Virus record (IMG/VR): IMGVR_UViG_3300010885_035447
Coordinates: 1-31,822 of that record
DNA: 31,822 nucleotides
Direction: 5' to 3' (one strand)
Source: a virus
Shown: positions 1 through 28,944 of the stretch, piece after piece
How positions within the stretch are numbered: the stretch's first letter is position 1
Layout: each line of letters begins with the position of its first letter
Program-made: the position numbers and the translations under genes
The notes under the pieces: model-generated
The model's database searches: none
What the model was told of the DNA's origin: nothing
Seen by the model: only the letters and a program-made list of their open reading frames with translations

Positions 1-189
1 GAGATAGAAGTAAAGGACACCAGCGTGTCCCCGCCACATTTTAGTGGCAGGATGGTTCACCCAGCCTTTAGTATTTCCTGATAGCGCAGCCATGATCTGA
101 CGGCCTTCTAGCAACTGCTTGACCAATCTTTTCTGGTCAAGCACTCTGGCACAGTCAGTAAAATTATATTCTGAAAGAAAAGTTTGCAT
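1..189 (-). CDS. Pyrimidine-dimer DNA glycosylase-like protein (MSMEG_6728 family), 3' end cut off by the window edge
   Basis: The first 63 residues are visible. They begin MQTFLSEYNFTDCARVLD, then QKRLVKQLLEGRQI, WVNHPA and MWRGHAGVL. This order (MQTFLP-type start, R-x-LD-x-KRLxKQ, W-NHPA-x-MW) is what I remember of the actinobacterial MSMEG_6728 family, annotated as related to T4 endonuclease V. That enzyme cuts at UV-induced pyrimidine dimers, so a DNA-repair role is inferred from family resemblance only. The ATG at 187-189 has a good ribosome binding site (GGAG, seven bases upstream). The gene continues past base 1 in an open frame, so the C-terminal half cannot be judged. Confidence 0.68.
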   Translation of the reverse strand, partial: MQTFLSEYNFTDCARVLDQKRLVKQLLEGRQIMAALSGNTKGWVNHPATKMWRGHAGVLYFYL

Positions 190-560: not shown

Positions 561-780
561 TATCTTCCTCATAGTCTGGGTGATCTATTGGAGTGGGAGC
601 CTTTGCCCTCATACCACAATGAAAGCACTCCATGTCCAGCATGTAGGATGAAATCTCGTAGTCATCAAAACTAACAACTATACTCCACATGTCTGAGCCA
701 CAAAGACACTCATGCATAATAATACCAGACAAGTCGTATGATTGTCCAGCCCGTTTCTTAGCATAGTCTATTGGATTCAT
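553..780 (-). CDS. Small zinc-ribbon-like protein (75 aa)
   Basis: Two cysteine knuckles are visible, CLCG near residue 26 and CFHCG near residue 52. They are separated by a beta-rich stretch (MWSIVVSFDDYEISSYML), the layout of a small zinc ribbon. The C-terminus is acidic (DHPDYEEDND). The start overlaps the last base of the Ntn-hydrolase stop region at 780. Similar tiny zinc proteins are common in actinophages. No specific function can be assigned. Confidence 0.6.
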   Translation of the reverse strand: MNPIDYAKKRAGQSYDLSGIIMHECLCGSDMWSIVVSFDDYEISSYMLDMECFHCGMRAKAPTPIDHPDYEEDND

Positions 781-1325
781 TAAACCTCGATAAAATTAAT
801 TGGTCCGACAACATATGGAGAGAATTCTATAGCACACAGTAGGCCATCCTTAGCCTTCTGACGTGGATCAGCGAACACATCACACCACATTGCTCCTAAA
901 GCATAGGGAGCGCCAGCACCAATCGCAGCAAAATGTAAATCATCATGTCCAACATGCCAATCTGACTCTACAACAAAAATATTTCCTCTGACTCCTACAA
1001 TCATAGACCAATCAGTTTTCTCATCATCATGAGTTGGATAGTTGTTCTCTTCCAAAGCCGACCTTAGTGCTGGAATAAATGCAGTCACCATATATCTCAT
1101 TAAATCTTCATCGTCAGTTTTTTCTGGAAGATCAGGCGGGGTAAACAAATACTCTATCACCTGACCCAATCTGAAACTATGACAATAACCAATACCAAAT
1201 TCGCCCTTGACAAATACTTTAGAGTTTATGTGTGAGGTTATTATGTCATTGTCTGTTGCTGCTGAATCTGCTCCCAAAACAATTTTACCTTCCCCACCAA
1301 CAACCGCTACAACACAAGTCATCAT
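780..1325 (-). CDS. Proteasome beta/HslV-like Ntn-hydrolase
   Basis: The sequence begins MMTCVVAVVGGEGKIVLGAD. If translation starts at the second Met (1322), Met removal would expose a Thr, as in HslV and 20S beta subunits. Further proteasome-fold signatures follow in order: GADSAAT with the Asp at residue 20, SKVF with the Lys at residue 36, and AIGAGAPYALGAM near residue 135, which matches the G-S-G-S-PYALGA loop of beta subunits. Relative to the nucleophile, Asp and Lys sit at 18 and 34 instead of 17 and 33, explained by one extra residue in the first hairpin. The length (181 aa) suits HslV or a mature beta subunit. It overlaps the stop of the upstream glycosyltransferase gene (TAATG). 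The role is inferred: self-compartmentalised protease, capsid maturation, or a decoy of the host proteasome. Confidence 0.75.
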   Translation of the reverse strand: MMTCVVAVVGGEGKIVLGADSAATDNDIITSHINSKVFVKGEFGIGYCHSFRLGQVIEYLFTPPDLPEKTDDEDLMRYMVTAFIPALRSALEENNYPTHDDEKTDWSMIVGVRGNIFVVESDWHVGHDDLHFAAIGAGAPYALGAMWCDVFADPRQKAKDGLLCAIEFSPYVVGPINFIEV

Positions 1326-2455
1326 TACCGCGCTTTCGGATTAGTACTCTTTATATACACTATTGTATCAATCCATTTGTTGACAACAACATTTATATTA
1401 TATTTTTCCATCACCGTCTGATGCCCACGATCTGATTGCTCTTTTCTTACTGCTGGATCAAGAAGTTTCTCTAACTCTCTAGTCCAGTCCCGGTTGCGTC
1501 TCGCTAAATTACCAGCACCATCTGATACTAATCTTTTATATTCTTCTGTGTCTGTGGCTACAAATGGGATGCCGGTGAAAGCATACTCCATTCCTTTCAG
1601 CCCGCTCTTAGCCTCGTTAAATGAAACCTTCTCTAGAGGAACGATACCAATATCTATAGGCATGAGAAGGTTGCCATAGTTTTTTGCTGAACACCCGGTT
1701 ACTCCATAAAATCTATCTGGATTAATCTTAGCCGCGTGGGCTAGTTGCAAGGGATTATTAGGGTCTATCCCTGCCTGATAAAATCGTAGATCATACTTTT
1801 CTAGAAAGTCTCCCAGCCAACCCTGAAGTTGAACAATATCATGCTGACGCCACAACATCATCCCAGCCCAACCAACAACAGGCTTATCATGACATACATC
1901 TGCACGCCTAATAAAGTCAGATGGGTTTAATGAGTTGTCAACCTGAATAACATTAGGGTTGGAATTTTTATAGTAATCATTAAGAAACTTAGTGCTTGTG
2001 ATAAGCCCATTCATGTGCCTGTATGCAGAAATCATATGATTACGATTCCATAGCGGGTCGGCCTTGGGATGCGTGGTATCGAATGCAATATTAGTGGTTG
2101 GCAGTCCATCAAACCAGTCATCCAAATCTGCAATGATTGTTTGACCCATAGCCCTAGCGCGTGAAATATAATCTTCATACTCATGCCACATCCAGAGTTT
2201 CATGATAATAACATCTAGGTCGCCAACGTATTGATTTGGATTTACTATTGGGCCTCTATGCCCAGCAAACATTCTTTCAATAGTGTTGGCGGCAACGAAT
2301 CCTTCTTCATCCCGCCATCCATATTCTCCAATGATTACTTCGATACCATTATTTACCATTGCTGCGGCAGGAACAAACATTCTAATATTTGTGCAGCCAC
2401 CGGGAGCGGATTCAATAAAATCCCCCCAGTCCGAACTAAGCATTCCAATACGCAT
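1325..2455 (-). CDS. GT-B fold glycosyltransferase (GT4-like)
   Basis: This 376-aa protein has a GT-B layout. The N-terminal Rossmann domain starts MRIGMLSSDWG and has a glycine-rich APGGCTNIR loop. The linker contains VVGWAGMMLWRQHD. The C-terminal nucleotide-sugar domain carries DIGIVPLEKVSFNEAKSGLK followed by MEYAFTGIPFVATD, equivalent to the E-x7-E region of GT4 enzymes. It probably transfers a sugar from a nucleotide sugar in the cytoplasm. It stands about 13 kb from the main glycan cassette, next to the Ntn-hydrolase, so its acceptor may be a virion protein or DNA. Acceptor and donor are unknown. Confidence 0.75.
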   Translation of the reverse strand: MRIGMLSSDWGDFIESAPGGCTNIRMFVPAAAMVNNGIEVIIGEYGWRDEEGFVAANTIERMFAGHRGPIVNPNQYVGDLDVIIMKLWMWHEYEDYISRARAMGQTIIADLDDWFDGLPTTNIAFDTTHPKADPLWNRNHMISAYRHMNGLITSTKFLNDYYKNSNPNVIQVDNSLNPSDFIRRADVCHDKPVVGWAGMMLWRQHDIVQLQGWLGDFLEKYDLRFYQAGIDPNNPLQLAHAAKINPDRFYGVTGCSAKNYGNLLMPIDIGIVPLEKVSFNEAKSGLKGMEYAFTGIPFVATDTEEYKRLVSDGAGNLARRNRDWTRELEKLLDPAVRKEQSDRGHQTVMEKYNINVVVNKWIDTIVYIKSTNPKAR

Positions 2456-2757
2456 TAATTCTTCCCACCAAATTGATTCATGCGCTCCATCATCTTATCC
2501 AAATCCGAATTATTCTTAGCGGCACTGGTCTTATTTATGTTCATAGTTTGTATCATCTGGTTAAATTCATTTAACGCATACGATGCCTGCAAAACTTTTC
2601 TGAATATATATACAGTCAGCAATAATATTACTGGAATCACTGGCATTTTGTGGTCATCAACTTCTAGAATGATTGCAACAATTGCGAAAGCATACAGTCC
2701 ATAGATTAAGATCCATCCAAGGGCGTAGCCAATAAAATACCCTACTATTCTACTCAT
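2455..2757 (-). CDS. Small membrane protein with two predicted TM helices
   Basis: The protein has 100 residues. Two hydrophobic stretches, about residues 4-31 (VGYFIGYALGWILIYGLYAF) and 38-55 (MPVIPVILLLTVYIF), are followed by a polar helical tail ending MMERMNQFGGKN. The start has AAGGA upstream. A holin-type or membrane-anchor role is possible, but no lysin neighbours it. It overlaps the start of the glycosyltransferase gene (TAATG at 2455). Confidence 0.55.
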   Translation of the reverse strand: MSRIVGYFIGYALGWILIYGLYAFAIVAIILEVDDHKMPVIPVILLLTVYIFRKVLQASYALNEFNQMIQTMNINKTSAAKNNSDLDKMMERMNQFGGKN

Positions 2758-5758: not shown

Positions 5759-7189
5759 CTATTCTGGTAAGAAGATTCCGCCAAAGTCACCACTAATATT
5801 TTTCTTTGTCTTCCATTCTTCTGGAAGAAGATCTGTAAGGCCAAGAGCGCGGGCGCGAGTAATTATATGACGCTTCGCCGCAGTTGGATTCTTAGCCCTA
5901 CCAAATGATTGAATAGCATTCTTAAGATCATCTTTGGTAGCAATTGGATATGAACCATCGGGCATTGCTTGACCACGATTCGCCATCATCCTTCTTTGCT
6001 TATCACTAAACTCTTTCTTCTCTAGATTAGCGCCATCCATTTTATTTTCCATCATTTTATTTTCTGGGATAATCCAAAGTTTACAGATTCCTTGTGGATC
6101 AATAACCCCAGAAACTATATGACAAGCACCCTGTTCATAGAAGATACAACTAGAGCATACTAGCCCCTCAGACTTAAATGGATTATTACTACCATCGGCA
6201 TAATGTGATCCATCCGCCCCTGATGACTGATCATATTGACCATACTCTTCAACAATCATACACAGGGAGTCTGCCTGATCAGACTGTCTTTCATTAAGAT
6301 CCGCCCAATCATCTTCTGGCATCTCCATGTCGTCCATTTCATCATTCATTTCATGCATTGATTTACTAATACTAGCAGGAGAAACAGTATTTAACTTATG
6401 TCCGACTATCGTATCCGTTGGCTTCCACTTACCATCCACCTTACGATAAATTCTAATCAATGCGGCAGGATCATCTGGAGTTCCAGTTATCTCAAACGAA
6501 GAATTTGGAACATTAACCTTTCCATTCCTTACAATTCTAATAATCTTACCATGCGCTTGACCGCCAGATGAACCCCAACTTACGAATGTCCCGACTGAAC
6601 CACCCTTTTCAATGTACTTACTCATGCTTGATGCACGCAGAGTACTCATTTTATGACCCACAAGAGTCTCAGTAGCCTTACCATCTTGATATATTCTGAT
6701 TAGAACGGCGGGATCATCTTTGGTAGCATTTATACTAAACTTAGTTTTTGGAACACCAAGAACTCCCTGTCGCATGATGTATTCAATTTTGCCCTCAGCC
6801 TTCCCACCGCTTGAACTCCATGAAACCATGTCTCCCACTGAGAATTCTTTAGCAGCCTTCTCCATATTTCTCTTCATAGATGCGGCCTTTTGCCTTGACC
6901 AAGAGAAACCCCCGTCACCACCCCACAAATCCCATGCCACTCTACCGGGGCTAGGAAATCCTTCTTCACCAGAATTGAAGCCAGTGGCCTTCTTATCAAC
7001 CTCATGACGAGCAAAGAAAGAGTACATTCTTTTAACGGTAGAATCGCTAAGATTCGTACCGTTTACAATTTGATTTGCACGGGCGAGGCCAATGGATGTT
7101 CCACCGCGCTTACCTTCTTTGTGCCAGTCTAAAGCCCTTTGAGCAGCAGACTTCATTCCGCTGGTCGGTATGTTGGATTTCTCAGCCAT
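5759..7189 (-). CDS. Multidomain phage capsid-region protein with two HVA1-like domains and a DUF6582-like C-terminus
   Basis: The 476-aa protein has several parts. Residues 1-100 resemble phage proteins with the GFPSPGRVAWDLWGGDGG motif. Residues 115-186 and 197-270 are two HVA1 (DUF2945, tudor-like) repeats; each has VSW-SSGG near its start, then GKI, DDPA-LIRIY and VGHK. A Met/Asp-rich linker follows (about 276-300). Next come four cysteines (345, 348, 356, 369) spaced like a high-potential iron-sulfur motif. Residues 392-460 (MANRGQAMPDGSYPIATKDD onward) match the DUF6582 pattern common in phage head modules. The tail ends FGGIFLPE. Related XkdF-type proteins occur beside portal or capsid genes. 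A head-associated or decoration role is inferred. Confidence 0.65.
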   Translation of the reverse strand: MAEKSNIPTSGMKSAAQRALDWHKEGKRGGTSIGLARANQIVNGTNLSDSTVKRMYSFFARHEVDKKATGFNSGEEGFPSPGRVAWDLWGGDGGFSWSRQKAASMKRNMEKAAKEFSVGDMVSWSSSGGKAEGKIEYIMRQGVLGVPKTKFSINATKDDPAVLIRIYQDGKATETLVGHKMSTLRASSMSKYIEKGGSVGTFVSWGSSGGQAHGKIIRIVRNGKVNVPNSSFEITGTPDDPAALIRIYRKVDGKWKPTDTIVGHKLNTVSPASISKSMHEMNDEMDDMEMPEDDWADLNERQSDQADSLCMIVEEYGQYDQSSGADGSHYADGSNNPFKSEGLVCSSCIFYEQGACHIVSGVIDPQGICKLWIIPENKMMENKMDGANLEKKEFSDKQRRMMANRGQAMPDGSYPIATKDDLKNAIQSFGRAKNPTAAKRHIITRARALGLTDLLPEEWKTKKNISGDFGGIFLPE

Positions 7190-11436: not shown

Positions 11437-13230
11437 CTAGATAGTTGCTATTCTCTGCAAGGCTTCTGCAAGATCGCCGGGTATATTTTTTTGCTTTGGT
11501 GCTTCAATAACCCCGCCAATTCTTGGCTGGACAATATCCTCATCGTGCTCAAACGAAGAGTAGTTGTAAATTTCAATCTCTCTATTTAAATCTTTTGGAG
11601 TATGAGCAATCGAATTATATATCGCTCCACACACAGCATCAGCCAAGTCCTTAGAACCTTTTCTAGGGTGATCAACCTTACCCTTAAGAATTCTAAGTTG
11701 TAACAATTCATCTGTCAAGAGTTCGATCCTTGGACCGTGAACTCTTTCCTCTGTAATAACCATAGCAAAATCTTCGTAATGTTTCTTGGCTACAGAAAGA
11801 ATCTCAGTATTAATATTGTAAGCCTTCAACTCATTCATAAGATCAAAACTGTTCCACCGATCAAAGGTCACCAGTCTAAGATTAAATCCTCGTGACCTTA
11901 GTTGTAAAATATAGTCCTTTACTTCAGAAAAGTCAACACTTTTATCTGAAGTAGGAGTCCACCATCTAACAGCATCAATAATTACTTTCGGTGCCGCCTG
12001 AGTCATCTTATCACCAATTTTCATTTGCACCCAAGATTCAATATGAGAAAGAGCCACAGCGCAATGGTCGTGCTTCTGAGCAAGATCAACGTGAACAAAA
12101 TACATCTTATCCTCATCAGGCTGAAACCATTCAGCAAATCTTCCTGAGGAATCAACTGCTGTATTCGGATTATTAAAGGCTGCTTCTATCTTCTCGCGTG
12201 ACTTAAAGAAGGCATCAATAGAGTCTGGAGGCATACAGGCGAACCTAGATAATGCATCGACCGGATCGGTATAGAAAGAAATTGTGAAGTCCTCTATCTT
12301 CCTTGTAGGGTTAACCTCCCAAGTAGGACGTTTAAGCGCGAAGACCCTTGGAATAGTATAGGCGATAATATGATCCTCCTCCCACTCAACAACGAATTTA
12401 TTCTCTTCCATGTCATCTGGTAGATCGGGATCAATCTTAAACTCAAAAGATCTAAAAACTGTTTCTTTATCTGCAATTACATCATTATATCTTTGTTGAA
12501 TAAAGTCATTCTTATATCGGGGAAATGAAAGAAGAATTACTTTACCATAGTCGGGGAATCGTGAATCAACTGACGCCTTATACATTCGATAGATCGCGCC
12601 AGCGGTTTTTGCCTGCTCATTTCCACTTGTAGATTCAATATCAAATCCTGAAATCTCATCAAGGAACACAATCAAAACGTTGTACCCCTCCCAAGATTCT
12701 CTCTGGGAGTGACCTGAGTGGACCGTTACAGCCTTATCAAATTCTATATTGTTCATCTTGGCATTGTATCTTCCTTGAAACCAAGGTGAGCGTTCGATTC
12801 TATTTGTAAAACCTTTGAAGAATACCCTATTTGCCTGCACAGCATTGATAGCAATATTAATAATGTCAATGCTGTCGCCGGGGGGCTTACCATAATACTT
12901 AGCGGGGTCTTGTAGGCATAGAAGAAGATATACTACATAGGCGCAGGCAATGGTAGAAATATAATCCTTACCGCTTCCCTTCCCCAATTGGAAGATAACC
13001 TCGTTACAGGTTTGCTTCCAACGCCTAGCGCCTTCCTCTTCTCCATAAAGAACAATTAGTGTTTCTTTTTTATAGATTTGAGTAGATGCTTTAAGCATTG
13101 TGTATTGGTGATCGGAAAGAGGGGGAAGGTTTAGAAATCTATCAGATACAACAAACTCTTCTATTGTTACCGGCTTCTCCTCAAAGTCATCTCCCTCAAG
13201 GATGTCTAGGAAGTCTGTAAAATCTATCAT
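11437..13230 (-). CDS. terL: Terminase large subunit (ATPase and nuclease)
   Basis: In 597 aa the ATPase motifs are Walker A QLGKGSGKD (81-89) and Walker B VLIVFLDE (185-192). The RNase H-like nuclease has acidic residues D382 (VHVDLAQ), D457 (VTFDRW) and D528 or D531 (SKDLADA). The protein drives DNA into the prohead and cuts concatemers. The Walker A variant GKGSGKD replaces the usual GxxGxGKS/T Ser/Thr by Asp, worth a structural check. It starts in the stop of the small-subunit gene (ATGA) and is followed by tRNA-Ile. Confidence 0.95.
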   Translation of the reverse strand: MIDFTDFLDILEGDDFEEKPVTIEEFVVSDRFLNLPPLSDHQYTMLKASTQIYKKETLIVLYGEEEGARRWKQTCNEVIFQLGKGSGKDYISTIACAYVVYLLLCLQDPAKYYGKPPGDSIDIINIAINAVQANRVFFKGFTNRIERSPWFQGRYNAKMNNIEFDKAVTVHSGHSQRESWEGYNVLIVFLDEISGFDIESTSGNEQAKTAGAIYRMYKASVDSRFPDYGKVILLSFPRYKNDFIQQRYNDVIADKETVFRSFEFKIDPDLPDDMEENKFVVEWEEDHIIAYTIPRVFALKRPTWEVNPTRKIEDFTISFYTDPVDALSRFACMPPDSIDAFFKSREKIEAAFNNPNTAVDSSGRFAEWFQPDEDKMYFVHVDLAQKHDHCAVALSHIESWVQMKIGDKMTQAAPKVIIDAVRWWTPTSDKSVDFSEVKDYILQLRSRGFNLRLVTFDRWNSFDLMNELKAYNINTEILSVAKKHYEDFAMVITEERVHGPRIELLTDELLQLRILKGKVDHPRKGSKDLADAVCGAIYNSIAHTPKDLNREIEIYNYSSFEHDEDIVQPRIGGVIEAPKQKNIPGDLAEALQRIATI

Positions 13231-14755: not shown

Positions 14756-15055
14756 CTATCTCCAGTTGTTTCTATTTGCTACCTTCAATAATACCAGATA
14801 GCCAATAAGATCATCTATATCATTATCGCCGGGAAACTCATTTCCCCTCGCAAAACGTGATAACTTGTCATCAATACGAACTTTTAACTGCTCAACATTA
14901 TCAGAATTAGAAAAAATTCTTACCGGGTCCAAGGCTGAGTTGCCGTAGGCCCTATTCTTATCAATAAGGAACTCTGACATCCTGCGACACACTGAAGCAA
15001 TCTCATGCTCAGTATTATTCTGCGGATCATATAGATTCTCAGTCTCATATAGCAT
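14756..15055 (-). CDS. DUF1599-like phage protein (99 aa)
   Basis: The ATG at 15053-15055 (MLYETENLYDPQNNTEHEIA) has GGAG upstream; an earlier frame start is rejected. The C-terminal segment KNRAYGNSALDPVRIF, then QLKVRIDDKLSRFARG and DDLIGYLVLLKVA, is a widespread phage motif set that I associate with DUF1599. It is helical with conserved Asp and Arg residues. A nucleotide-related function has been suggested for the group. It overlaps the end of the glycan cassette by 11 bases. Confidence 0.65.
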   Translation of the reverse strand: MLYETENLYDPQNNTEHEIASVCRRMSEFLIDKNRAYGNSALDPVRIFSNSDNVEQLKVRIDDKLSRFARGNEFPGDNDIDDLIGYLVLLKVANRNNWR

Positions 15056-15722
15056 TTGGTTTTCTCCAATAGTCGATTTCATTGTTATCATCATTGAATG
15101 GTTTTGTAAACCTTTCTTCTCCCGGTATCCCGCCCCATTTGGCGCGATAGTAATTCTCACAGTAGTTCCAGTGGTCCTTGGTAATTAACACTCCAGTGGT
15201 AGCCGACTGCTTATGATAAAAGCCACTCTTTGTAACTAAATAATGTTTCTGTCCTGCCAAATGAATTCTATAGTACATGTCATTATCTTCAAAGTATGCC
15301 GGGAAGAAGTTTTCATCAAACCACCCACATACTTCTATCAATCTATACATATCTACAACAAAGCAGGACCAATGAATAGATTCGTTAACGCCGATGCTTC
15401 TATCAAAATACATATTCATTCCATCACGTTCTGGAACACAAAAGTTTGGAGATACAATAATAGCATCACTATTTAAAAGGTGCTCAAACGCATCGCCAAT
15501 CGCATTAGTCTCTAATAAAATATCATCATTGACAATGATAGCGTATCGATAGCCGTCCTTCATGGCCCGCCTGATTCCTTGATTCCATCCAGCGGCAACG
15601 CCAATATTATTATCCCAATTCCTAATCACATAAGGATGGATAGGATAGTCAACCGTACTCATCATATTAGTAAAAAGTTTGAACTGATTTAGTACTGGGA
15701 CAATCATTGCTAATTTTTTCAT
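15045..15722 (-). CDS. Family 2 glycosyltransferase
   Basis: The GT-A fold is visible: MKKLAMIVPVLNQFKLFTNM at the start, NNIGVAAGWNQGIRRAM, the metal-binding IIVNDDILL, and FFPAYFEDNDMYYRI, where the ED pair is the likely catalytic base region. The last part (HKQSATTG) matches phage GT2 enzymes. It transfers a sugar from a nucleotide donor in the cytoplasm. It starts in the stop codon of the GH130-like gene (ATGA). It is the last gene of the glycan cassette. Confidence 0.85.
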   Translation of the reverse strand: MKKLAMIVPVLNQFKLFTNMMSTVDYPIHPYVIRNWDNNIGVAAGWNQGIRRAMKDGYRYAIIVNDDILLETNAIGDAFEHLLNSDAIIVSPNFCVPERDGMNMYFDRSIGVNESIHWSCFVVDMYRLIEVCGWFDENFFPAYFEDNDMYYRIHLAGQKHYLVTKSGFYHKQSATTGVLITKDHWNYCENYYRAKWGGIPGEERFTKPFNDDNNEIDYWRKPNAI

Positions 15723-16573
15723 AATAAGCCCTTAAAATTATTCTCTTCTATTCTTAAAGTTGAAACCCCATCATCATAAACTGAGTATGGGATTAAAATA
15801 TCGCTAGCGTCTCTTGATAGGGATAAAGAAAATTCAATTCCCTCTTTCTCAAAGTAAAACGATCTACCCAACTTCTGGCCGGTCCAATCTTTATTACATG
15901 ACATCAAGGAATGCCAGTAGAACCTTGACCTTGGTTCATATTCAAACATACCATGAACTAGGCAAACTAGTCTATCCTCAAATTTAATTAAATTAGATCC
16001 ACCATGAATAGCCCGGCTATCTATCTTTCTAGTAGACTTATAAACATTAACCAATCTATCATCTATTAATTCATACACATTCATAGGATCAACATCAACA
16101 ACAAAATAAAGTTTATCCCCATCAACATAGGGCATCCAATTTTTTGTATAGGGCCTGCCCTCTGGATCATCTAAGAATATATGTTTACCAGAATCCAGAT
16201 TTAACATTACCATAATTATTTTGCTTATGCTATGGTTCGGCCTAACAAAAAGGCACCAATCATCGCCAAGCCAATTAAATAGTTTTGGGTCTTCCATGCC
16301 ATTATATCTATCCCACAATGGGAATCCATACCCACGGAAACGAATCCTATTTAAATCTTCTAGTTGATCATCAACTAAATTGGCAGTCGATATAAAAGAA
16401 TATTTACCAGAAACATTAGTCTGAGGGCGAAAGTCAGAACTCCTAAAAGCGACTCTATTCGTTCCCTCTAAAAAACTAAGATTAAAGTTATAAAAATTAT
16501 TATCGGGGAAAATAATTCTTTTTCTTTCTTTAATTTGAATAAGACTATCTATTGATTGATAACCATCTACCAT
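15719..16573 (-). CDS. GH130-like five-bladed beta-propeller protein
   Basis: The 284-aa protein has repeated beta blades with GMEDPKLFNWLGDDWCLFVR, the GH130 signature G-x-EDP, then KNWMPYVDGDKLYFVVDVDP and HGGSNLIKFEDRLVCLVHG. GH130 enzymes are mannoside phosphorylases or hydrolases. Phage and capsule-cluster relatives may act as transferases or glycan-binding proteins. Here it lies between two glycosyltransferase genes, so it could trim, transfer or bind the growing glycan. It overlaps the upstream gene by 7 bases. Confidence 0.7.
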   Translation of the reverse strand: MVDGYQSIDSLIQIKERKRIIFPDNNFYNFNLSFLEGTNRVAFRSSDFRPQTNVSGKYSFISTANLVDDQLEDLNRIRFRGYGFPLWDRYNGMEDPKLFNWLGDDWCLFVRPNHSISKIIMVMLNLDSGKHIFLDDPEGRPYTKNWMPYVDGDKLYFVVDVDPMNVYELIDDRLVNVYKSTRKIDSRAIHGGSNLIKFEDRLVCLVHGMFEYEPRSRFYWHSLMSCNKDWTGQKLGRSFYFEKEGIEFSLSLSRDASDILIPYSVYDDGVSTLRIEENNFKGLL

Positions 16574-17160
16574 CTATCTGGCCTGCCATGCGTGCTTTCA
16601 TCATGCCAATTCCAGATCCAAGTTTCTTCATTAACGTGAACAATCTTCATGCCCGCTGCCACCAACTTATGAATCATTAAATAATCTTCACCAATACGGT
16701 TTCCAGACTCATCAGTCTTATTACTTAATGGGTCAAAGCCCAAGGAGAATCCACCAACGGCTTTTAAAGACTCTGTTTTTGCCATCCAAGTAATAGGTAC
16801 CTGATGAATATAGTCATCGTTCCACGCCACGCCACGCCATTTTTCTAGGTGACTACCATAACCTTCTATCGATAGCCTATGCCAAGGATAAACTAGGTCA
16901 GCGTCCTGCTCTTCCGACACATTATATAAAGTTTCAATATGATTAGGCAATAGATAGTCATCATCATCTAAGATACAAACATATTTAGTATCACATCTTT
17001 TCAGCATCGCATCCCTCATCGCTGCCGCGCCGACTCTATTGTAGTCAATCTCTACCATAAAAACATCTGCCTTCATGGTTTGTGAAACTACTGACTTCAT
17101 GGCTCTCTGCCTAAGATCAGTCCTTTTTGGAATAGATGCCATAATGACGGTTACGCTCAT
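16567..17160 (-). CDS. Family 2 glycosyltransferase
   Basis: The 197-aa protein starts MSVTVIMASIPKRTDLRQRA. It has the DXD-like YVCILDDDDYLLPNHIETLY, then VPITWMAKTESLKAVGGFS and RIGEDYLMIHKLVAAGM. This is a compact GT-A enzyme. Four Asp residues in a row at the metal site are typical. It starts in the stop of the next upstream gene (ATGA) and probably adds one sugar of the cassette glycan. Donor and acceptor unknown. Confidence 0.82.
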   Translation of the reverse strand: MSVTVIMASIPKRTDLRQRAMKSVVSQTMKADVFMVEIDYNRVGAAAMRDAMLKRCDTKYVCILDDDDYLLPNHIETLYNVSEEQDADLVYPWHRLSIEGYGSHLEKWRGVAWNDDYIHQVPITWMAKTESLKAVGGFSLGFDPLSNKTDESGNRIGEDYLMIHKLVAAGMKIVHVNEETWIWNWHDESTHGRPDRW

Positions 17161-17912
17161 TTGTAGTAGTACCTTTCAGTATGTGACCAAGTTTGGTTCT
17201 TATAGTAAAATTCTTTTTCTTCCACACTCTGCGGCATAAGTTCTTTCTTCCACCAACCAATATGCTGGCAAGTATATTTACCCCCAATACGAATAGATGG
17301 ATAGGCCCATGTCGGCTTTCCAAATTTTCTATGGTAAGCACAAGCATCTCTTTTATTAAGAGAGAAAGTAGTATCAATTGCTGCATTAAATATTGTGTCT
17401 TTTGTTGATGTGATTCCGACTTTTTCCTGCCAATAACGCTCCTCTATAGCACTTACGCTATCGGCATCTAAAAATCTCTCTCTCTCTTCATCATTGTGTA
17501 TCTCAATTGCAAAACCGGCCTTTGCCACATTCATTGAATTAATTAATTCTTTCATCTCTGAAATATATTTTTCAGGAAGATCCTTATTATGAATTAGATC
17601 TGGGTCGGTAACAATAAAATATTCTGGCATTAGATTAAGTATTTGTAGGTCTTCCGTAAATATTCTTGGACCAGTATTGACGCTAGATCTTACTACGTCA
17701 TACATATCAGAAAGACTATCTAATAGTTTAATCATTGGCTCGTAGGTAGAATTATTATCATATATGACAATTCTATCTGTGTGACCTCTACTTAAAAATT
17801 CTTTTAACGTTAAGTTAAGTAGGTCGGGTTGATTAAATGTTGGTATGAATGTGGGGATTTCTTTTGTATCAATGTCTAGAAGCAAAGGAAATATAGATTT
17901 ATATGCAGTCAT
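17157..17912 (-). CDS. GT-A fold glycosyltransferase-like protein
   Basis: The 251-aa protein has EIPTFIPTFNQPDLLNLTLK, RIVIYDNNSTYEPM and YFIVTDPDLIHNK, equivalent to GT2 strand 1, loop and DXD. The Asp-Pro-Asp motif is intact. The C-terminal half has an IGWWKKELMPQSVEEKEFYY segment typical of phage glycosyltransferases. It is placed between the GT25-like and GT2 genes. Specificity unknown. Confidence 0.78.
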   Translation of the reverse strand: MTAYKSIFPLLLDIDTKEIPTFIPTFNQPDLLNLTLKEFLSRGHTDRIVIYDNNSTYEPMIKLLDSLSDMYDVVRSSVNTGPRIFTEDLQILNLMPEYFIVTDPDLIHNKDLPEKYISEMKELINSMNVAKAGFAIEIHNDEERERFLDADSVSAIEERYWQEKVGITSTKDTIFNAAIDTTFSLNKRDACAYHRKFGKPTWAYPSIRIGGKYTCQHIGWWKKELMPQSVEEKEFYYKNQTWSHTERYYYK

Positions 17913-17914
17913 TA

Positions 17915-18535
17915 CTAGCCCCTCAGAAATTCGTAGTCAGAATGACTATTAGTTACATCAGACCAACCGGGACTCTGCCATGCCATTGGTGGAGTAAATT
18001 CATAACTTTTAAACTTATAATAGTTATAAGAATAAATGACATCGTTTGGCTGAGTATCATTTAAAAGATCAAGTATCTTTTCATAACAACTATCACTAAA
18101 TCCAACAGCATGTGTTGCTAAGGTTCTAGTTGGAATAGATAAATTATTTGATACTCTTACTGGATTGCCAAACACATGATTTCCGCCAAAATGTATAATT
18201 TCCCAATCATCTGGCACTTCTTTAATTGCTACATCAAACTTTTCCTCAAAGTCTTTTCTAAATTCAACATCATCCTCTAGGAGGAGAAAATTTTTGTAAC
18301 CTTTAGTTATAGCATTGTTAAATAATCTAAGATGAGTAAGGAATGACCCTATGTCACCGGGTGACATTCTAGATGGATATGTTCCTGTTGGAATTTTCAT
18401 TCCATCTGTAGCAGAAAATCTTTCTACATTGCTGATGGAATGTTCTTGAAACTCTTTTTTAACATCAATCCACCGATCTGGCCTTCGATCAAGGTTGATG
18501 CAGTATATGTGTTCAAAAAAATCATTTAAAGTCAT
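17915..18535 (-). CDS. GT25-family glycosyltransferase
   Basis: The ATG at 18533-18535 forms an ATGA overlap with the epimerase stop and has GAGGAG upstream, so it is preferred to the ATG at 18553. Signatures are HIYCINLDRRPDRW (10-22), ERFSATDG (38-45), GDIGSFLTHLRLF (60-72) and FLLLEDDVEF (83-92). GT25 enzymes transfer galactose or glucose to lipooligosaccharide or collagen-type acceptors. Here the acceptor is unknown. Length (206 aa) is normal for the family. Confidence 0.87.
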   Translation of the reverse strand: MTLNDFFEHIYCINLDRRPDRWIDVKKEFQEHSISNVERFSATDGMKIPTGTYPSRMSPGDIGSFLTHLRLFNNAITKGYKNFLLLEDDVEFRKDFEEKFDVAIKEVPDDWEIIHFGGNHVFGNPVRVSNNLSIPTRTLATHAVGFSDSCYEKILDLLNDTQPNDVIYSYNYYKFKSYEFTPPMAWQSPGWSDVTNSHSDYEFLRG

Positions 18536-19428
18536 TCTACTCCTCGTATCCATTCATTCACATTGATTTCTGGTCGCCAACCAAACGCCTGATTAACTTT
18601 TTCTATATTCGCCAAGGTAGTGTGCATCTCACCCTCTCTTAGATCTATAAAAACTTGATCATTAGAAAGTAAATCTGCTACCTCTTTGATAGAGATGTTA
18701 ATTCCACTACCAATATTATACACTTGACCATAATATTCTAATGCAATTGTATTTTCTATTGCAAGCAAGTTAGCGTTCACGACATCGGATACATGAATAA
18801 AATCTCTTCTTTGACTTCCATCTCCAACGATTGTTAATGGCTGACCAAGTTCTTTTTGACGCTTAAATATTCCCAAAACCAATGCGTATCGCCCTTTGCT
18901 GGGAGATCTTTCTCCGTATACGTTGAAATACCTAAAGGTTATAGTTTTTAATCCGTATAGATCATTGTACATCTTGCAAAGTTTTTCCGCAGCCACCTTT
19001 GATACTGAATAAGGATTTAAGCAATCATCTTGCTGAGTCTCAACATTTGGATATTTATTTAATCCATATACAGAGGAAGTAGAAGAATATACCACCACCT
19101 TAACCATTGCTTCTTTAGCACATTGTAAAACAGTACAGGTTCCCACTACATTTTTCTCCATTGATTTAATTGGATTTAAGATGGCAGGCTGTAGCCTTGA
19201 CTCTGCCGCTAAATGAAAAACAAAGTCGGCTTTATTATAGAGCGTACGGGTGGACTCGTAATCACAGATATCATAATTAAAGTATAAGGCTTGATCATTA
19301 AAATAAAACTTTTCATTATATTCCGCTGAAAGATTATCAATTACAATTACCTCATGACCTAAACTTATTAATCTATCAACTAGATGTGATCCAATAAATC
19401 CGCAACCTCCAGTTACAATACTTTTCAT
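18532..19428 (-). CDS. NAD-dependent sugar epimerase/dehydratase (extended SDR)
   Basis: The nucleotide-binding GGCGFIGSHL (7-16), the FHLAAESR region, STSSVYG and the catalytic Y140-x3-K144 pair (PYSVSK) are all present in 298 aa. NVYGERSPSKGRYA and GDGSQRRDFIHVSDV follow the UDP-glucose 4-epimerase-type pattern. It could be a UDP-hexose epimerase or act on the activated heptose made by the three upstream enzymes. It overlaps them in translation (ATGA at 19425). Confidence 0.88.
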   Translation of the reverse strand: MKSIVTGGCGFIGSHLVDRLISLGHEVIVIDNLSAEYNEKFYFNDQALYFNYDICDYESTRTLYNKADFVFHLAAESRLQPAILNPIKSMEKNVVGTCTVLQCAKEAMVKVVVYSSTSSVYGLNKYPNVETQQDDCLNPYSVSKVAAEKLCKMYNDLYGLKTITFRYFNVYGERSPSKGRYALVLGIFKRQKELGQPLTIVGDGSQRRDFIHVSDVVNANLLAIENTIALEYYGQVYNIGSGINISIKEVADLLSNDQVFIDLREGEMHTTLANIEKVNQAFGWRPEINVNEWIRGVE

Positions 19429-20126
19429 TTACTTCCCTTTATTTTAAGTTTTAAGTTCGTTGTTGAATAGTCATGGTCACGATCTATCCATACGATAGGG
19501 ATTGGAAGGTCCGGTCCAGTGTATTGACGAGACAGATAGTCAGATCCTAAAAATCTAATATCATGTTCTTTGGAGCCAAGGATGCAATACAGATCTTCCT
19601 CCGTTTGATACCTAACTACCTTATCAACATCCCTCATCGCTAGCAATATTTCTTCACGCTCATCCACCGAATGGATGGGCTTTTGTTTTCCATTTTCTAG
19701 GCTAGGATCAATGTGTAGGGCTACAGTAAGGTAATGACAGTGTGCTTTTGCTTCTTTAAACATTCTCACATAACCGGGGTGGATTATGTCAAAAGCCCCG
19801 GCAAGAATGCCAAACTTATTAAATTGCTTCTTCTTCCACTCAACAATATTCATTGCCTTATCATCAATGAACAAATCAGCATGTGGCTTAAGGTTCATTA
19901 TTAGTTCATGATATGGGACACCCCACTCTTTCAACTGCCGCTTGGTCAGATCTGTATGGTCCACCTTGCTGACGCAGCCACGGGCCGTCATGATCTTAAT
20001 AATATGTCCGTGTTCATATAGAGCGCAAATATTATTAATGACCTCAGGATCAGGCTGTGCCAATTCATACTGACTGTCCTTTACAGAAGTACAAAGCGTT
20101 CCATCTAAGTCGAAGCAATAAATCAT
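19425..20126 (-). CDS. Fused HAD phosphatase and sugar-phosphate nucleotidyltransferase
   Basis: The ATG at 20124-20126 overlaps the isomerase stop (ATGA). The protein is 233 aa. Residues 1-100 form a HAD domain with D6-LDGT, T47 (IMTARG), K80 and D88-D89 (FIDDK). Residues 103-230 form a cytidylyltransferase-like domain with GAFDIIHPGYVRMF (110-123), and STT near 221. The nucleotidyl motif is HPGY rather than HxGH. Together the domains would dephosphorylate heptose 1,7-bisphosphate and attach a nucleotide to heptose 1-phosphate, roles of GmhB and HldE-C/HddC. Which nucleotide is used is not visible. Confidence 0.83.
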   Translation of the reverse strand: MIYCFDLDGTLCTSVKDSQYELAQPDPEVINNICALYEHGHIIKIMTARGCVSKVDHTDLTKRQLKEWGVPYHELIMNLKPHADLFIDDKAMNIVEWKKKQFNKFGILAGAFDIIHPGYVRMFKEAKAHCHYLTVALHIDPSLENGKQKPIHSVDEREEILLAMRDVDKVVRYQTEEDLYCILGSKEHDIRFLGSDYLSRQYTGPDLPIPIVWIDRDHDYSTTNLKLKIKGSK

Positions 20127-20629
20127 TCTACCGCCCCGTGCAGAAATATCTGATGGATGCATTCCGCAACTCCATAACTTGTTGTATCAACATAATAATT
20201 AAATTTTGCATCATAGGATAGTGTTCTTACAGGATTGTTTGGCTTAAACGCAGTAAGAACCCCGTAATCAATTTTGCTATCTGAGCAAAACTCTACGCAG
20301 TTTATGATGTTCTTTGAATTTCCAGAAGAACTGATTAAAATAACCAATGATTTATCTGTCGCAAACGACTCTAAATACTTTCTGTACGCCTCTTCCACTC
20401 CATAATCATTCATAAAGCATGTAAGCATTGAAGGATCAGAGAAGGTTAGCCCACGCTTGCCACCTCTTTTAGTAAAATCTTGAGCAATATGTGCAGCAGC
20501 GGCATTGCTTCCACCATTTCCAATGACAATTATTTCACTGTGAGAGTCATATTCCTTGATAAATTTATCATACTCATCATCATTTTTCATTGCTTCAATC
20601 ATCCGAACGCATTCCTCAAAAAAACTCAC
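20123..20629 (-). CDS. gmhA: Phosphoheptose isomerase (SIS domain, GmhA-like)
   Basis: The SIS core reads GNGGSNAAAAHIAQDF (37-52), then SSSGNSKNI (100-108), with Q160-x3-H164 near the end as in GmhA zinc ligands. GmhA turns sedoheptulose 7-phosphate into D-glycero-D-manno-heptose 7-phosphate, the first step to activated heptose. At 168 aa the length is slightly short for the family. The start is GTG, overlapping the kinase stop as GTGA. Its neighbours supply the next steps. Confidence 0.85.
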   Translation of the reverse strand: MSFFEECVRMIEAMKNDDEYDKFIKEYDSHSEIIVIGNGGSNAAAAHIAQDFTKRGGKRGLTFSDPSMLTCFMNDYGVEEAYRKYLESFATDKSLVILISSSGNSKNIINCVEFCSDSKIDYGVLTAFKPNNPVRTLSYDAKFNYYVDTTSYGVAECIHQIFLHGAVE

Positions 20630-21573
20630 AAGGTGTCTCCTTCAACTCCCTTAGAACTTACATCAACTTTAACATTTTCATATTCAATGTTCAGGGTATC
20701 CTTCTTAGAGAAGGTCAAAAAGAATCCGCCGTTTCCAGCCCCACATAATTTATGAGAAAGTACTGATGAGTTAGCATAAAGACTCTCATCCATTTCAACT
20801 AAATAAGGATTCTCTAAAATCATTTTACTTGTATTTTTCTTTTCCGTCCAACTCTTATTCAGCAATTCTAGGAATTCTGAGTAATTTTTAGAATCAAGGG
20901 CATCTCTGGCCCTATCAACCAATTTTATTAACGGAACTGCACGATCAATATTATCAGTAACATCTTGCAGGACGTGCTTTGAATTTCTTGTTATACCAGT
21001 AAATAAAAGATGCATATCATATTCCCTGAACAATTCTGTACCTAGAAATTCATTACTTACATTTCCATTGTCGTAGAATTTCATTTGTTTGAAACCACCA
21101 ATTCCACATCCATATGGATCTTGGTAGCCACAATGTGGATTGAATTTCAACTCAAGTTCGTAGGCTAGTTTACAAATTTCAATATCGCTCATGTTTGTAT
21201 TTGTAAAAATACATGCAGCCTTTATCAAACTTATTAAATATGATGATGACGATGCCAACCCGCTTCCTTGTGAGTAAACATCACTATTTAAATATACTGT
21301 AACCGGAGGAAGGTCAAAGTGTTCCAGCACTAAACGAACAACCTCGTTTTCAATCTTTGATACTCTATCAACTTCCTCATGACGACTGTAATTTACTATA
21401 TACTTCTTCCCACTTTTATTGAATCCCATCTTATCCTGAGTCATTAATGCATAGGTTTTTAAGTTACAGGTAAAACTAATTACTTGACCAAACCCATATC
21501 TAGATACAAACTCTGGGTTGTCCGATGAACCCCCAAACAAAGAGACTCTGAGGGGGCAACTAGCAGCAATCAT
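20626..21573 (-). CDS. hddA: GHMP-family sugar kinase, D-glycero-D-manno-heptose 7-phosphate kinase-like
   Basis: The GHMP kinase motifs are CPLRVSLFGGSSDNPEF at the N-terminus, GSGLASSSSYLISL (103-116, phosphate loop) and LCGAGNGGFFLTF near the C-terminus. The 315-aa length and start PLRVSLFGG match HddA, which makes heptose 1,7-bisphosphate, and its close relative fucokinase. The neighbouring isomerase and HAD-nucleotidyltransferase favour the heptose route. It begins in an ATGA overlap. Confidence 0.85.
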   Translation of the reverse strand: MIAASCPLRVSLFGGSSDNPEFVSRYGFGQVISFTCNLKTYALMTQDKMGFNKSGKKYIVNYSRHEEVDRVSKIENEVVRLVLEHFDLPPVTVYLNSDVYSQGSGLASSSSYLISLIKAACIFTNTNMSDIEICKLAYELELKFNPHCGYQDPYGCGIGGFKQMKFYDNGNVSNEFLGTELFREYDMHLLFTGITRNSKHVLQDVTDNIDRAVPLIKLVDRARDALDSKNYSEFLELLNKSWTEKKNTSKMILENPYLVEMDESLYANSSVLSHKLCGAGNGGFFLTFSKKDTLNIEYENVKVDVSSKGVEGDTL

Positions 21574-22385
21574 TTATTTATCTCTTCAATTCTTTTTCTG
21601 TAGTACGGCCTAGATGAGTAATATTCTCTTAATTCAAGAGGATTCATAGCCATCAAACGATCATATAATTCAATATTTTTATAGTAAAAAACATTATTCT
21701 CTAATGAAAAGTTACCACGTTGATGTTCTAGATGATATACAAAATTTTCAACGCGCCCTACATTCATTCCCAACTTAACAAAACGATGATGTATTTCCTG
21801 ATCTTCTGGCCCGCCTGAATAAAACTCTTCATTCTCCATGAATCCGTTTATATAAGAAGATTTTTTATAAAAAGTACAGAACCCAAAATGCGCGAATCCA
21901 TAATTATTGTTTGCTCCAAAAGGTTCTGCTTGTCGATCTAGAACTTTAATATCTAGAGTGCTTGAGAATTCTTTTTCGCTTCCCTTATTAAGATGTACTT
22001 TTTTGGAAGAATAATGTCCGTGTATAAATGGATATACAGAGTCGTATTCTCCACGAATCATCTCAGCGGCCTTTAAGTATGAACTGTACGGAAGAATGAT
22101 ATCGGTATCATACTGAACAATAATATCCGTATCAGACATTACGATCATGTCATTTAACAACCTTGTTTTATGAAACATGAAATCAGAATTTTGTTCGTAT
22201 ATGTAGGTTACGTTTGGCCCAATGATACTTGAAGGATCAAATTTTTGAGTGATATCACATTCTTTAATTATTAGTTTAGAATTAAAGTTGGCAGTCAAAA
22301 ATTTTGATACTAGATTTAGATTTCTAATCCTATCTTGACTATCTATTCTAATTGGAATAATGAATGTTGCATCTGACAGTATCAT
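21570..22385 (-). CDS. Glycosyltransferase (GT-A, galactosyltransferase-like)
   Basis: The ATG at 22383-22385 forms an ATGA overlap with the GT11 stop and is preferred to an earlier ATG. The protein has IIPIRIDSQDRIRNL at the N-terminus, DTDIIVQYDTDIILPY as DXD region, GFCTFYKKSSYINGF, and EEFYSGGPEDQEIHHRFVKL with EDQE as catalytic acid region. This is the layout of beta-1,4-galactosyltransferase-like (GT7/GT27) and GT2 enzymes. It probably adds a hexose to the glycan. Confidence 0.78.
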   Translation of the reverse strand: MILSDATFIIPIRIDSQDRIRNLNLVSKFLTANFNSKLIIKECDITQKFDPSSIIGPNVTYIYEQNSDFMFHKTRLLNDMIVMSDTDIIVQYDTDIILPYSSYLKAAEMIRGEYDSVYPFIHGHYSSKKVHLNKGSEKEFSSTLDIKVLDRQAEPFGANNNYGFAHFGFCTFYKKSSYINGFMENEEFYSGGPEDQEIHHRFVKLGMNVGRVENFVYHLEHQRGNFSLENNVFYYKNIELYDRLMAMNPLELREYYSSRPYYRKRIEEINK

Positions 22386-23143
22386 ATTCTCATCCAATCA
22401 TCTGGTATTAGGTCTTGAGTTTCTTCAACTGGAATGTAGTTAGGGTTGAACCAGTGTAACGGAGCAACAACCTTCCTCCCCGCATTTTGATTTAACCACG
22501 CTCCCCACCAACTAAATGAACTATTAGAAATAATATTACCCATTGGAGCATTGGTCATAATATAAAGATCTTCGTCGTAATCATTTAAATTAAACTGACA
22601 ATTAGAGAAGAATTTTTGCGCCGTACACCATTCAATGTCATCTGATAGAACAACAAATCTTGTGTCATCAGGAAACAACGACATGGCGTCCCGATAATAT
22701 TTCTCAGAGCATAGCCCATGAAATTCTGTCTTCTGAACATAGTCGCCACGGCGAACATGGATCGCAACGTCATATTCTTTTTCAATATTATATTGTTTCT
22801 TAAAAGTAAAATCACTCAATATTTCATCACGAATATGCGTAAAATATCGATATGATTGAAGATAACCCTTTATGTCCACATTGTCTCTACATGCATAAAA
22901 TAAATTAGGGTCAAACCTGAACCCACGCTGCTCCTCAACCATCTCACCCGAACCGTATGCGGTGCTGACGCCATTCATAACAAAAAATTTAAACAACATG
23001 TGATCATAATAAGCATTAACCTCAGCACTTTTAGGAATACAAAACGAGTAGCCATTTTGACGCGCGATACCTTTTAAAGATGCATATTGAAACATTTGGT
23101 TTCCCAGACGACCATTAGATCCGAGACTGTTCATTGAAATCAT
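22382..23143 (-). CDS. Alpha-1,2-fucosyltransferase (GT11)
   Basis: The GT11 signatures are GRLGNQMFQYASLKG (11-25), HVRRGDYV (129-136) and NSSFSWWGAW (near 210). The HxRRGD motif binds GDP-fucose. Family enzymes transfer L-fucose in alpha-1,2 linkage to galactose or N-acetylglucosamine. The 253-aa length is near the lower end. GDP-fucose would be made by the Gmd and Fcl enzymes encoded 3-5 kb upstream. It follows a methyltransferase gene after a 19-base gap with a ribosome binding site. Confidence 0.9.
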   Translation of the reverse strand: MISMNSLGSNGRLGNQMFQYASLKGIARQNGYSFCIPKSAEVNAYYDHMLFKFFVMNGVSTAYGSGEMVEEQRGFRFDPNLFYACRDNVDIKGYLQSYRYFTHIRDEILSDFTFKKQYNIEKEYDVAIHVRRGDYVQKTEFHGLCSEKYYRDAMSLFPDDTRFVVLSDDIEWCTAQKFFSNCQFNLNDYDEDLYIMTNAPMGNIISNSSFSWWGAWLNQNAGRKVVAPLHWFNPNYIPVEETQDLIPDDWMRI

Positions 23144-23162
23144 TTATTGAAACTCCTGTTTC

Positions 23163-23882
23163 TTATACAATACACTCATCATATATTTTCTGTGAATATT
23201 CTTTTCTAATAGCAACTAGATTAAGAGTTGAATTAATTTTACTTTTAATATCTTTAAAAATTGCGTCATCAACTTTGATCAACAACTGACCTTCATTATG
23301 ATAGTTCAAGTTTTGAAGATAAATATCAAAGATATTTTTATCAAACCAAACTATGTACTCTTCTGGGGTTATTCCTCTATCTAGCAAAGTTCCACCATAC
23401 TCAAATTGAATTATTTTAGTATTGTTTTCAATTATACTTTTGCCACCCTCGAAACAGTCTATCTCCATGCCTTCGATATCTATTTTTAGAAAATCTATTG
23501 ACTTTATATTATTTTCTTTGCAGTAGCCATCTAAAGTTTTTATTTTCAGACGAATTCCCTCATCTTTAGACTGAACACTGTTGTATCTAAATACAAATGA
23601 CTGAGTATTTGGATAATAAACAGCAGTGCTTTCCTTGCTTCCTGTTCCGAAAGCATTCAAATAAACTTTATTTTTATTTTCAATTTGTGAGGCTAACTGT
23701 TTTTTAGAATTTTCAATGAATTCTTCAACAGGCTCAAAAAGATGGAACTCCCTTGGACGATCCTTGGAATTAATAATATAGTCAATATCATCTCTTGATC
23801 CAACATCAAAGACCACATCTATATATTTTTTTATTTTATTAAAAAACAAAACTTCTAATTCAGGAAAATCATCATAGGGCAT
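23163..23882 (-). CDS. FkbM-type methyltransferase
   Basis: The ATG at 23880-23882 (MPYDDFPELEVLFFNKIKKY) is chosen; it overlaps the previous gene by 11 bases. The S-adenosylmethionine binding VVFDVGSRDDIDYI, the HLFEPVEEF strand and the IDFLKIDIEGMEIDCFEGG motif (IDxEGxE) define the FkbM family. These enzymes O-methylate sugars of glycans or secondary metabolites. Three tandem members here suggest a multiply methylated glycan. Length 239 aa. Confidence 0.85.
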   Translation of the reverse strand: MPYDDFPELEVLFFNKIKKYIDVVFDVGSRDDIDYIINSKDRPREFHLFEPVEEFIENSKKQLASQIENKNKVYLNAFGTGSKESTAVYYPNTQSFVFRYNSVQSKDEGIRLKIKTLDGYCKENNIKSIDFLKIDIEGMEIDCFEGGKSIIENNTKIIQFEYGGTLLDRGITPEEYIVWFDKNIFDIYLQNLNYHNEGQLLIKVDDAIFKDIKSKINSTLNLVAIRKEYSQKIYDECIV

Positions 23883-24513
23883 TTTTATTTCCCTTAATTT
23901 TTTTTTCCGACATATAGAATGCGTCACCCCAAGTTCTAGATTCCCAATGTGTTTCAACACGAATAATTCCATATTTAGACAATAGATCATCTACCTCTTC
24001 GATCATTTTATTTCCACTATATGTTTCTCCACGGTTAACCTCTAGGTAGACATAATCCATATGCTTAAGCGTTTGTTCTGCCCCAAGCAGAACTTCATAC
24101 TCATATCCCTGCACGTCAATGGAAAGATAATTACAGTCATTTATATAACTATCATATGAGTCAAGCGTGTACATGTCAACCAGTTCATAATTATTAAAGG
24201 ATATCGTGGGATGATCTATCAAGCAGTCCTTGGGGGTTAAAATCGAACTGGCGCACTTATCTCCAGAAGCGACATTCATCTTTACATCTTTTTTATTAGT
24301 TTCACCCAAAGCGCAGTTAAATAACAGCACCTTTTCTGATTCATGTTTTTTAAGCACATCAAAACTACTTTTAATTGGCTCAAAGCCGACTACTTTTTCT
24401 ACTTTGTACCTTAGGTAGTCATCTATTTCTACTCCATGGTGCGCTCCGACATGAACAATGCCAGAAACATCTAAGTTGTATTTTATGTATAAGTATCCAT
24501 AGTCTATTATCAT
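23872..24513 (-). CDS. FkbM-type methyltransferase
   Basis: The 213-aa protein shows VSGIVHVGAHHGVEIDDYLR (SAM-binding), VVGFEPIKSSFDVL, the SSI segment and CNYLSIDVQGYEYEVLLGAE (the IDxQGxE variant of IDxEGxE). It probably O-methylates a sugar hydroxyl. It differs strongly from the two neighbouring FkbM proteins, so the copies are not recent duplicates and may act on different positions. AAGGAATGAA precedes the ATG. Confidence 0.87.
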   Translation of the reverse strand: MIIDYGYLYIKYNLDVSGIVHVGAHHGVEIDDYLRYKVEKVVGFEPIKSSFDVLKKHESEKVLLFNCALGETNKKDVKMNVASGDKCASSILTPKDCLIDHPTISFNNYELVDMYTLDSYDSYINDCNYLSIDVQGYEYEVLLGAEQTLKHMDYVYLEVNRGETYSGNKMIEEVDDLLSKYGIIRVETHWESRTWGDAFYMSEKKIKGNKNAL

Positions 24514-24522
24514 TTCATTCCT

Positions 24523-27862: not shown

Positions 27863-27871
27863 TATTAATCC

Positions 27872-28789: not shown

Positions 28790-28791
28790 CA

Positions 28792-28944
28792 CTACCTCTT
28801 CTTCTTAATTATTTCATATTTTTCTAAGGCTCGTTGAATGGTCATATGACTACATCCCGCCTCTTTAGCCATATTTACAATACCCTGTTTTTCAACTATA
28901 TATCTTTTATAGAGCCACTCACGACTCTCGTATAACTTAGCCAT
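28792..28944 (-). CDS. Small helix-turn-helix protein (50 aa)
   Basis: The protein starts MAKLYESREWLYKRYIVEKQ and has a helix-turn-helix, GIVNMAKEAGCSHMTIQRAL, with the usual A-x3-G-C turn. The end is basic (KYEIIKKKR). The arrangement resembles the DNA-binding end of homing endonucleases and small phage regulators. It starts after the RuvC-like gene and ends at the start of the glycan cassette, where it could regulate. Confidence 0.65.
   Translation of the reverse strand: MAKLYESREWLYKRYIVEKQGIVNMAKEAGCSHMTIQRALEKYEIIKKKR

Follow-up and report, generated by a model that had tools for sequence, protein, structure and literature searches.

The whole stretch of viral DNA analysed here, referred to below as the window, is an incomplete fragment of 31.8 kb (31,822 nucleotides). 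Its minus strand carries a phage open reading frame at 780..1325, whose product is 180 or 181 amino acids long depending on the start chosen (MMTCVVAVVGGEGKIVLGADSAATDNDIITSHINSKVFVKGEFGIGYCHSFRLGQ...IGAGAPYALGA...FIEV); read on the plus strand, the same interval is full of stops. A sequence-only reading of this DNA had proposed a proteasome/HslV-like Ntn-hydrolase here from an MM-T start and the motifs GADSAAT, SKVF and GAGAPYALGA, and all of these are present, on the minus strand. Absent from that reading were the strand, the start, the loss of a set of catalytic residues (Ser129/Asp166/Ser169) and a conserved partner gene directly downstream. The features of the locus are collected in Table 1.

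Table 1. Coordinates of the genes and codons discussed in the text, as positions of the window; residue counts among relatives are from the 203-row alignment of the broad family.
Feature	Position	Strand	Evidence
CxC...CxxC protein, putative zinc ribbon, 75 aa	553..780	-	Start overlaps Ntn stop by 1 nt
Ntn-hydrolase (AAH-like proteasome homolog), 180 aa	780..1322	-	Likely start ATG 1320-1322; phrog_1040, model, clade M-T-C
Ser168-Pro-Tyr-Val171 codons; Ser at Asp166, Val at Ser169 positions	810..821	-	Alignment to BPH 5ovu
Gly135-Ala136-Gly137 loop codons; Ala at Ser129 position	912..920	-	Alignment
Gly45 codon, oxyanion-hole Gly47	1188..1190	-	203/203 relatives
Lys35 codon, proteasome Lys33	1218..1220	-	202/203 relatives
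Asp19 codon, proteasome Asp17	1266..1268	-	202/202 relatives with a letter there
Thr2 codon, catalytic Thr1 after predicted Met removal	1317..1319	-	Thr in 199/200 relatives with a letter there
Extra upstream ATG of the listed frame	1323..1325	-	Overlaps glycosyltransferase stop codon (TAATG)
Glycosyltransferase (GT4-like), conserved upstream neighbour	1325..2455	-	phrog_7162, E=1e-25
Small membrane protein	2455..2757	-	30% identity over 53 aa to L002 5714-6004, E=6e-5
Terminase large subunit	11437..13230	-	67% identical over full length to Streptomyces phages Francob, Gilson and others

Start codon, gene neighbourhood and host

The Ntn gene begins TAATGATGACT, where the glycosyltransferase stop codon overlaps a first ATG and a second ATG follows immediately. 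The second (1322) is the likely start, because all of the other members of the clade to which the window belongs (7/7) begin M-T-C from a single ATG; most members of the wider family likewise have an M-T start with one ATG, and in two clade members a GGAGGA ribosome-binding site lies just 5' of it. The first ATG is probably not the main start; its use is possible, and would give Met-Met-Thr. Methionine aminopeptidase cleaves Met preceding Thr and not Met preceding Met, so a free Thr would arise only from the second ATG. Upstream of the first ATG the frame is open for five codons only, with no further start codon, and a longer propeptide is thus not possible. In Microbacterium phage Lifes, gene 14 (L006 4294-4830) has an annotated start at 4336 that cuts off the catalytic Thr; the homologous frame starts ~36 bases earlier, at ...VIITT. 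Two related Vibrio phages carry a peptide deformylase gene two to three genes 5' of the Ntn gene (L010 1633-2130, L015 1498-1995); Thr1 would be exposed by Met removal, a step that comes after deformylation.

The gene sits between the glycosyltransferase and zinc-ribbon genes, and the terminase gene is about 10 kb away. The GT4-like glycosyltransferase is 58% identical in the relative locus L002 and is present in 6 of the 8 clade loci, and the small membrane protein is a likely homologue of the one encoded directly 5' of the Ntn gene in relatives; the order of these two genes (window 1325-2757) is swapped relative to L002 and L020. No match to HslU was obtained in the fragment, as the sequence-only reading had remarked. 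At 1-189 (minus strand) a pyrimidine dimer DNA glycosylase gene runs off the contig end, leaving only its start, and in most of the clade this gene lies 3' of the Ntn/zinc-ribbon pair. A Hva1_TUDOR-domain protein with a weak match to a head maturation protease (0.007) is encoded at 5759-7189 (minus strand), and in the clade loci related pieces are found again close to the Ntn gene. A large glycan-building cluster occupies 15045-28792 (minus strand), with several glycosyltransferases and methyltransferases, three GDP-mannose dehydratase/epimerase-like genes, GT10 and GT11 fucosyltransferase-like genes and a phosphoheptose isomerase/heptose kinase-like gene.

An actinobacterial host, which had also been suggested from sequence, is likely because of the identity of the terminase to those of Streptomyces phages. 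Phages of the Gilson type (~128 kb) belong to the Stanwilliamsviridae, Loccivirinae, and their gene order is partly shared with the window (Cas4-like nuclease, glycosyltransferases and heptose kinase, terminase, tRNAs). No Ntn relative was found in the complete genome of Streptomyces phage Gilson, and Gilson was rejected as a carrier. With its host assigned by terminase kinship, the window represents a candidate actinophage lineage with an AAH-like protein. Its habitat is probably freshwater or otherwise aquatic, by analogy with relatives such as DSL-LC01, a lake phage with predicted host Actinomycetia (PMC10611076), whose record already carries the label HslV.

Fold, active site and family of the Ntn protein

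Over its whole length the protein matches phrog_1040, 'peptidase HslV family' (E=2.4e-20), and its scores against Pfam Proteasome (E 0.037), NCBIfam (E about 0.1) and the NCBIfam HslV family (12 bits, with a cut-off of 157.75) are all under cut-off. Homologues were detected by tblastn in 177 of 50,697 GenBank phage records, with 27-36% identity in the rows inspected, and relatives 59% and 48% identical occur in other viral contigs; at the nucleotide level no relative was found among GenBank phages. Because of these three lines, the phrog_1040 match, the GenBank phage records and the viral relatives, 780..1322 is a true gene of a widespread phage and bacterial family. The family was described in 2021, and the protein is not special to this phage. 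The bacterial relatives retrieved are mainly from Azospirillum, Rhizobium and its relatives, Micromonosporaceae and Streptomyces, which is the distribution of AAH. Locus searches were carried out with closer sequence subsets, the family-wide alignment being too divergent.

An AlphaFold model (single chain, 99-sequence alignment) was obtained with a pLDDT of 96.3 and a pTM of 0.91. It has the four-layer proteasome beta fold, with Z of at least 8 for all 1000 of the 1000 chains compared, and the best solved match is BPH with epoxomicin (5ovt, Z 20.6). Both the fold and the phrog_1040 match therefore bear out the assignment as a proteasome/HslV-like Ntn-hydrolase. Residue 2 of the model superposes on residue 1 of BPH, E. 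coli HslV (1e94) and yeast beta2, and on residue 301 (Thr1) of Mtb PrcB, for which Z is about 18; identities over the structural matches are 25% to BPH, about 20% to HslV and 13-14% to PrcB. A profile of four relatives matches BPH 5ovs (3.5e-9) and HslV 1m4y (2e-8) from sequence alone, and places Thr2 on Thr1 of HslV 1m4y and of BPH 5ovu. Unaligned active-site residues had been named as the observation that would count against the assignment; Thr1, Asp17 and Lys33 are aligned both by profile and by structure.

The near-invariance of these three residues in the broad family (Table 1), together with the presence of each in 53/53 distinct sequences of the actinophage lineage, indicates that the triad is under strong constraint. 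Gly47 is replaced by Ala in 33/53 of the actinophage-lineage sequences (e.g. L276 9258-9815 and relatives). The earlier likening to active proteasome beta subunits holds for Thr1/Asp17/Lys33 and fails for the Ser129-Asp166-Ser169 set, which is missing from the window protein (Ala136, Ser168 and Val171 at these positions); in the 203-row alignment the corresponding residues of the family are mostly Cys, Ser/Asn and Val. In proteasomes Ser129, Asp166 and Ser169 protonate Thr1, and a true proteasome is strongly impaired when its Asp166 is mutated (PMC4792962). Peptidase activity of the Ntn protein is likely, judging by the model and the conserved triad, and a proteasome-like catalytic efficiency cannot be assumed from a sequence in which this set is absent. 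BPH binds epoxomicin covalently; in vitro, its proteolysis was undetected and none was obtained for Anbu (PMC5777263).

The group I proteasome homologs comprise HslV, BPH, AAH, CPH, PPH and others (Fuchs et al. 2021, PMC8665760). AAH is compact, without a propeptide, and found in alpha-proteobacteria, Actinobacteria and phages, and PPH is about 140 aa long and without helix H2 (PMC8665760). Since helix H2 is present (residues 71-92 of the model) and the length is 180 aa, the protein is AAH-like and not a PPH. It further resembles AAH, which is carried by bacteria as well as phages, in its size of about 180 aa, in helices H1-H4, in the compact C-terminus without S12/H5 and lack of a propeptide seen from the model and the start analysis, and in Thr1/Asp17/Lys33. 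It differs from AAH in its branching and in its zinc-ribbon partner gene, which is absent at the other AAH loci examined. In the tree, which included BPH but neither HslV nor the published AAH reference sequence, the window and two other viral contigs form one clade (support 100/99) that lies on the AAH side of BPH (100/100), and is sister to, and outside, the AAH core plus T5-like phages (97/87; the bootstrap of the tree is not fully settled). By sequence, then, the window protein belongs to a deep, separate lineage of environmental viral contigs. A recent capture from an actinobacterial host was considered and rejected, as actinobacterial AAH lie elsewhere in the family tree.

Among the known systems, PHROG 1040 (T5-like, Geobacillus E3, Vibrio and Moorella phages) matches at full length with 27-36% identity; however, its name comes from annotation only, and the T5-like neighbourhoods are those of nucleotide metabolism. 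BPH (5ovs, 5ovt, 5ovu; PMC5777263) is the best solved structure and likewise has no known dedicated ATPase, but it retains Ser129 and, by the 5ovu alignment, Asp166 and Ser169, has a long acidic pore loop and is encoded by a chromosomal gene. HslV (ClpQ) shares the fold, Thr1 and the lack of alpha subunits, whereas its identity is low, the fragment is without HslU and the window protein scores far under the NCBIfam cut-off. The group I relatives in Microbacterium phage Lifes, Arthrobacter phage Pitbull and DSL-LC01 (PMC10611076) are also from actinophages and of the same superfamily, but they fall outside the AAH clade in a quick tree, and their residues at the Asp166 and Ser169 positions are Asp (retained) and Thr. 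In Pseudoalteromonas phage J2-1 (L011 3001-4164) the Ntn domain is followed by a C-terminal extension of ~200 aa, for a total of 388 aa.

A conserved pair with a small zinc-ribbon-like gene

The small protein encoded directly 3' of the Ntn gene has the motif HECxCGS...DMECxxCGxxAxAPTP, with four conserved, zinc-ribbon-like Cys, and a small CxC/CxxC gene occupies this place in 8/8 clade members. Viral contigs were also scanned in reverse, with the ~75-aa small protein alone, and the best 80 loci were taken (L268-L347). An Ntn gene (E<=1e-6) is found in 57 of these 80 loci, on the same strand in all 57 and at -36 to +17 nt from the small gene in 54 of them; in the other 23 no nearby Ntn gene was found at this threshold. 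The Ntn sequences of the pair loci can be as little as about 40% identical to the query sequences and fall into about 10 clusters at 70% identity. Where a terminase could be read in these loci, it is 50-73% like that of the window, so the pair represents one large phage lineage and not many independent events.

The zinc ribbon was also considered as a general partner of AAH, and rejected: among AAH loci an HMM found the small gene only in the window clade, and the pair is therefore lineage-specific. In GenBank the small protein occurs only in ct2KA10 (two entries), each with an Ntn gene, and in OX376641 (ct2KA10) the two genes are ~9 kb apart. The zinc-ribbon-like family itself is very common, with over 575 stretches of environmental viral contigs. 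A model of the small protein has a moderate pLDDT of 72.7, and no significant structural match to it was found in the PDB. The conserved pairing of the Ntn and CxC-CxxC genes is the most useful new observation of this analysis, and the small protein is a candidate adaptor, regulator or substrate of the Ntn protein. Nothing telling was reported for AAH gene context in the 2021 survey (PMC8665760), and no experimental work on phage AAH or PPH was found in the literature searched beyond that survey.

Possible functions of the Ntn protein

Our preferred reading, which we hold to be probable though well short of certain, is a phage-borne threonine peptidase subunit, a proteasome-like 'group I' protein that is AAH-like and near BPH and HslV. 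Host deformylase and methionine aminopeptidase would take off Met and free Thr1, the subunits may form homo-oligomeric rings like those of BPH and HslV with the active sites inside, and Lys33 would activate the Thr1 hydroxyl to cleave peptide bonds. Operating without a dedicated ATPase, such a peptidase may cleave, in the infected cell, a restricted range of substrates that are unfolded or brought to it, and the presumably co-transcribed zinc-ribbon protein would act in one of the candidate roles given above. We also offer, as a speculative and doubtful extension, a two-gene system of a large aquatic actinophage lineage, in which an AAH-like ring without the Ser129/Asp166 shuttle would be served by a zinc-ribbon adaptor from the gene directly 3' of it and would dispose of selected proteins of host or phage independently of any ATPase.

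Of the alternatives, the one that survives best, though we regard it as rather unlikely, is an Ntn-fold enzyme other than a general peptidase, which might be a specialised amidohydrolase, a transpeptidase/ligase, or a monomer with a single partner as its target, for example the zinc ribbon. Loss of Ser129/Asp166/Ser169 alongside strict retention of Thr1/Asp17/Lys33 is consistent with such an enzyme, as are the lack of an ATPase partner in the fragment, the tight linkage of a small partner gene and the precedent of connectase within the superfamily (PMC8665760). However, the protein is without a connectase-like insertion near the active site, and its compact group I architecture, nearest to the ring-forming BPH and HslV, argues against this reading.

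A virion-assembly protease, or a clean-up factor for scaffold or capsid proteins, is improbable. In raw counts, head genes (terminase, portal, prohead protease, capsid) do lie in the ~4-6 kb flanks of 67 of 119 AAH-type viral loci, almost always on the same strand as the Ntn gene, and the upstream head-gene density of 0.16-0.24 within 1.6 kb falls to 0.09 or less beyond 2.6 kb. This enrichment is clear only upstream, with a suggestive clustering in temperate-type loci. Yet the Ntn gene is inside the head module in only 8 of the 67 loci, and several such phages, as well as Microbacterium phage Lifes, encode a capsid maturation protease distinct from the Ntn protein. Among T5-like and large lytic phages, the gene keeps company with nucleotide metabolism instead: thymidylate synthase, DHFR or dCMP deaminase genes are nearby in T5-like phages, Geobacillus E3, Xanthomonas XacN1 and Salicola SCTP-2. 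Because so few loci are inside the head module and the neighbours elsewhere belong to nucleotide metabolism, a capsid-processing role is unsupported in general; for the window, where it had been proposed, the gene lies away from capsid genes, with a glycosyltransferase, a membrane protein and a zinc ribbon as the neighbours of its lineage.

It is more improbable still that the protein is a relic without catalytic activity, retained for a structural or decoy role, as the missing second catalytic set and a possible Met-Met-Thr start might suggest: a dead enzyme would not keep Thr1, Asp17 and Lys33 invariant while the remaining sequence drifts to 30-40% identity. The proposal that the protein joins, blocks or mimics the 20S proteasome of Actinobacteria is the least probable of all, for although the host lineage is likely actinobacterial and PrcB has the same fold, BPH and HslV are closer than PrcB (13-14% identity, against 25% for BPH), and relatives are carried by phages that infect Vibrio, Salmonella, Geobacillus and others, hosts that are mostly not known to have a 20S proteasome.

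No actinobacteria-specific phage with AAH was present in the 2021 survey (PMC8665760), and AAH-like proteins are now placed in a candidate actinophage lineage. As the AAH group is uncharacterised, the conserved small partner gene gives a concrete handle by which the two proteins may be studied as a pair.
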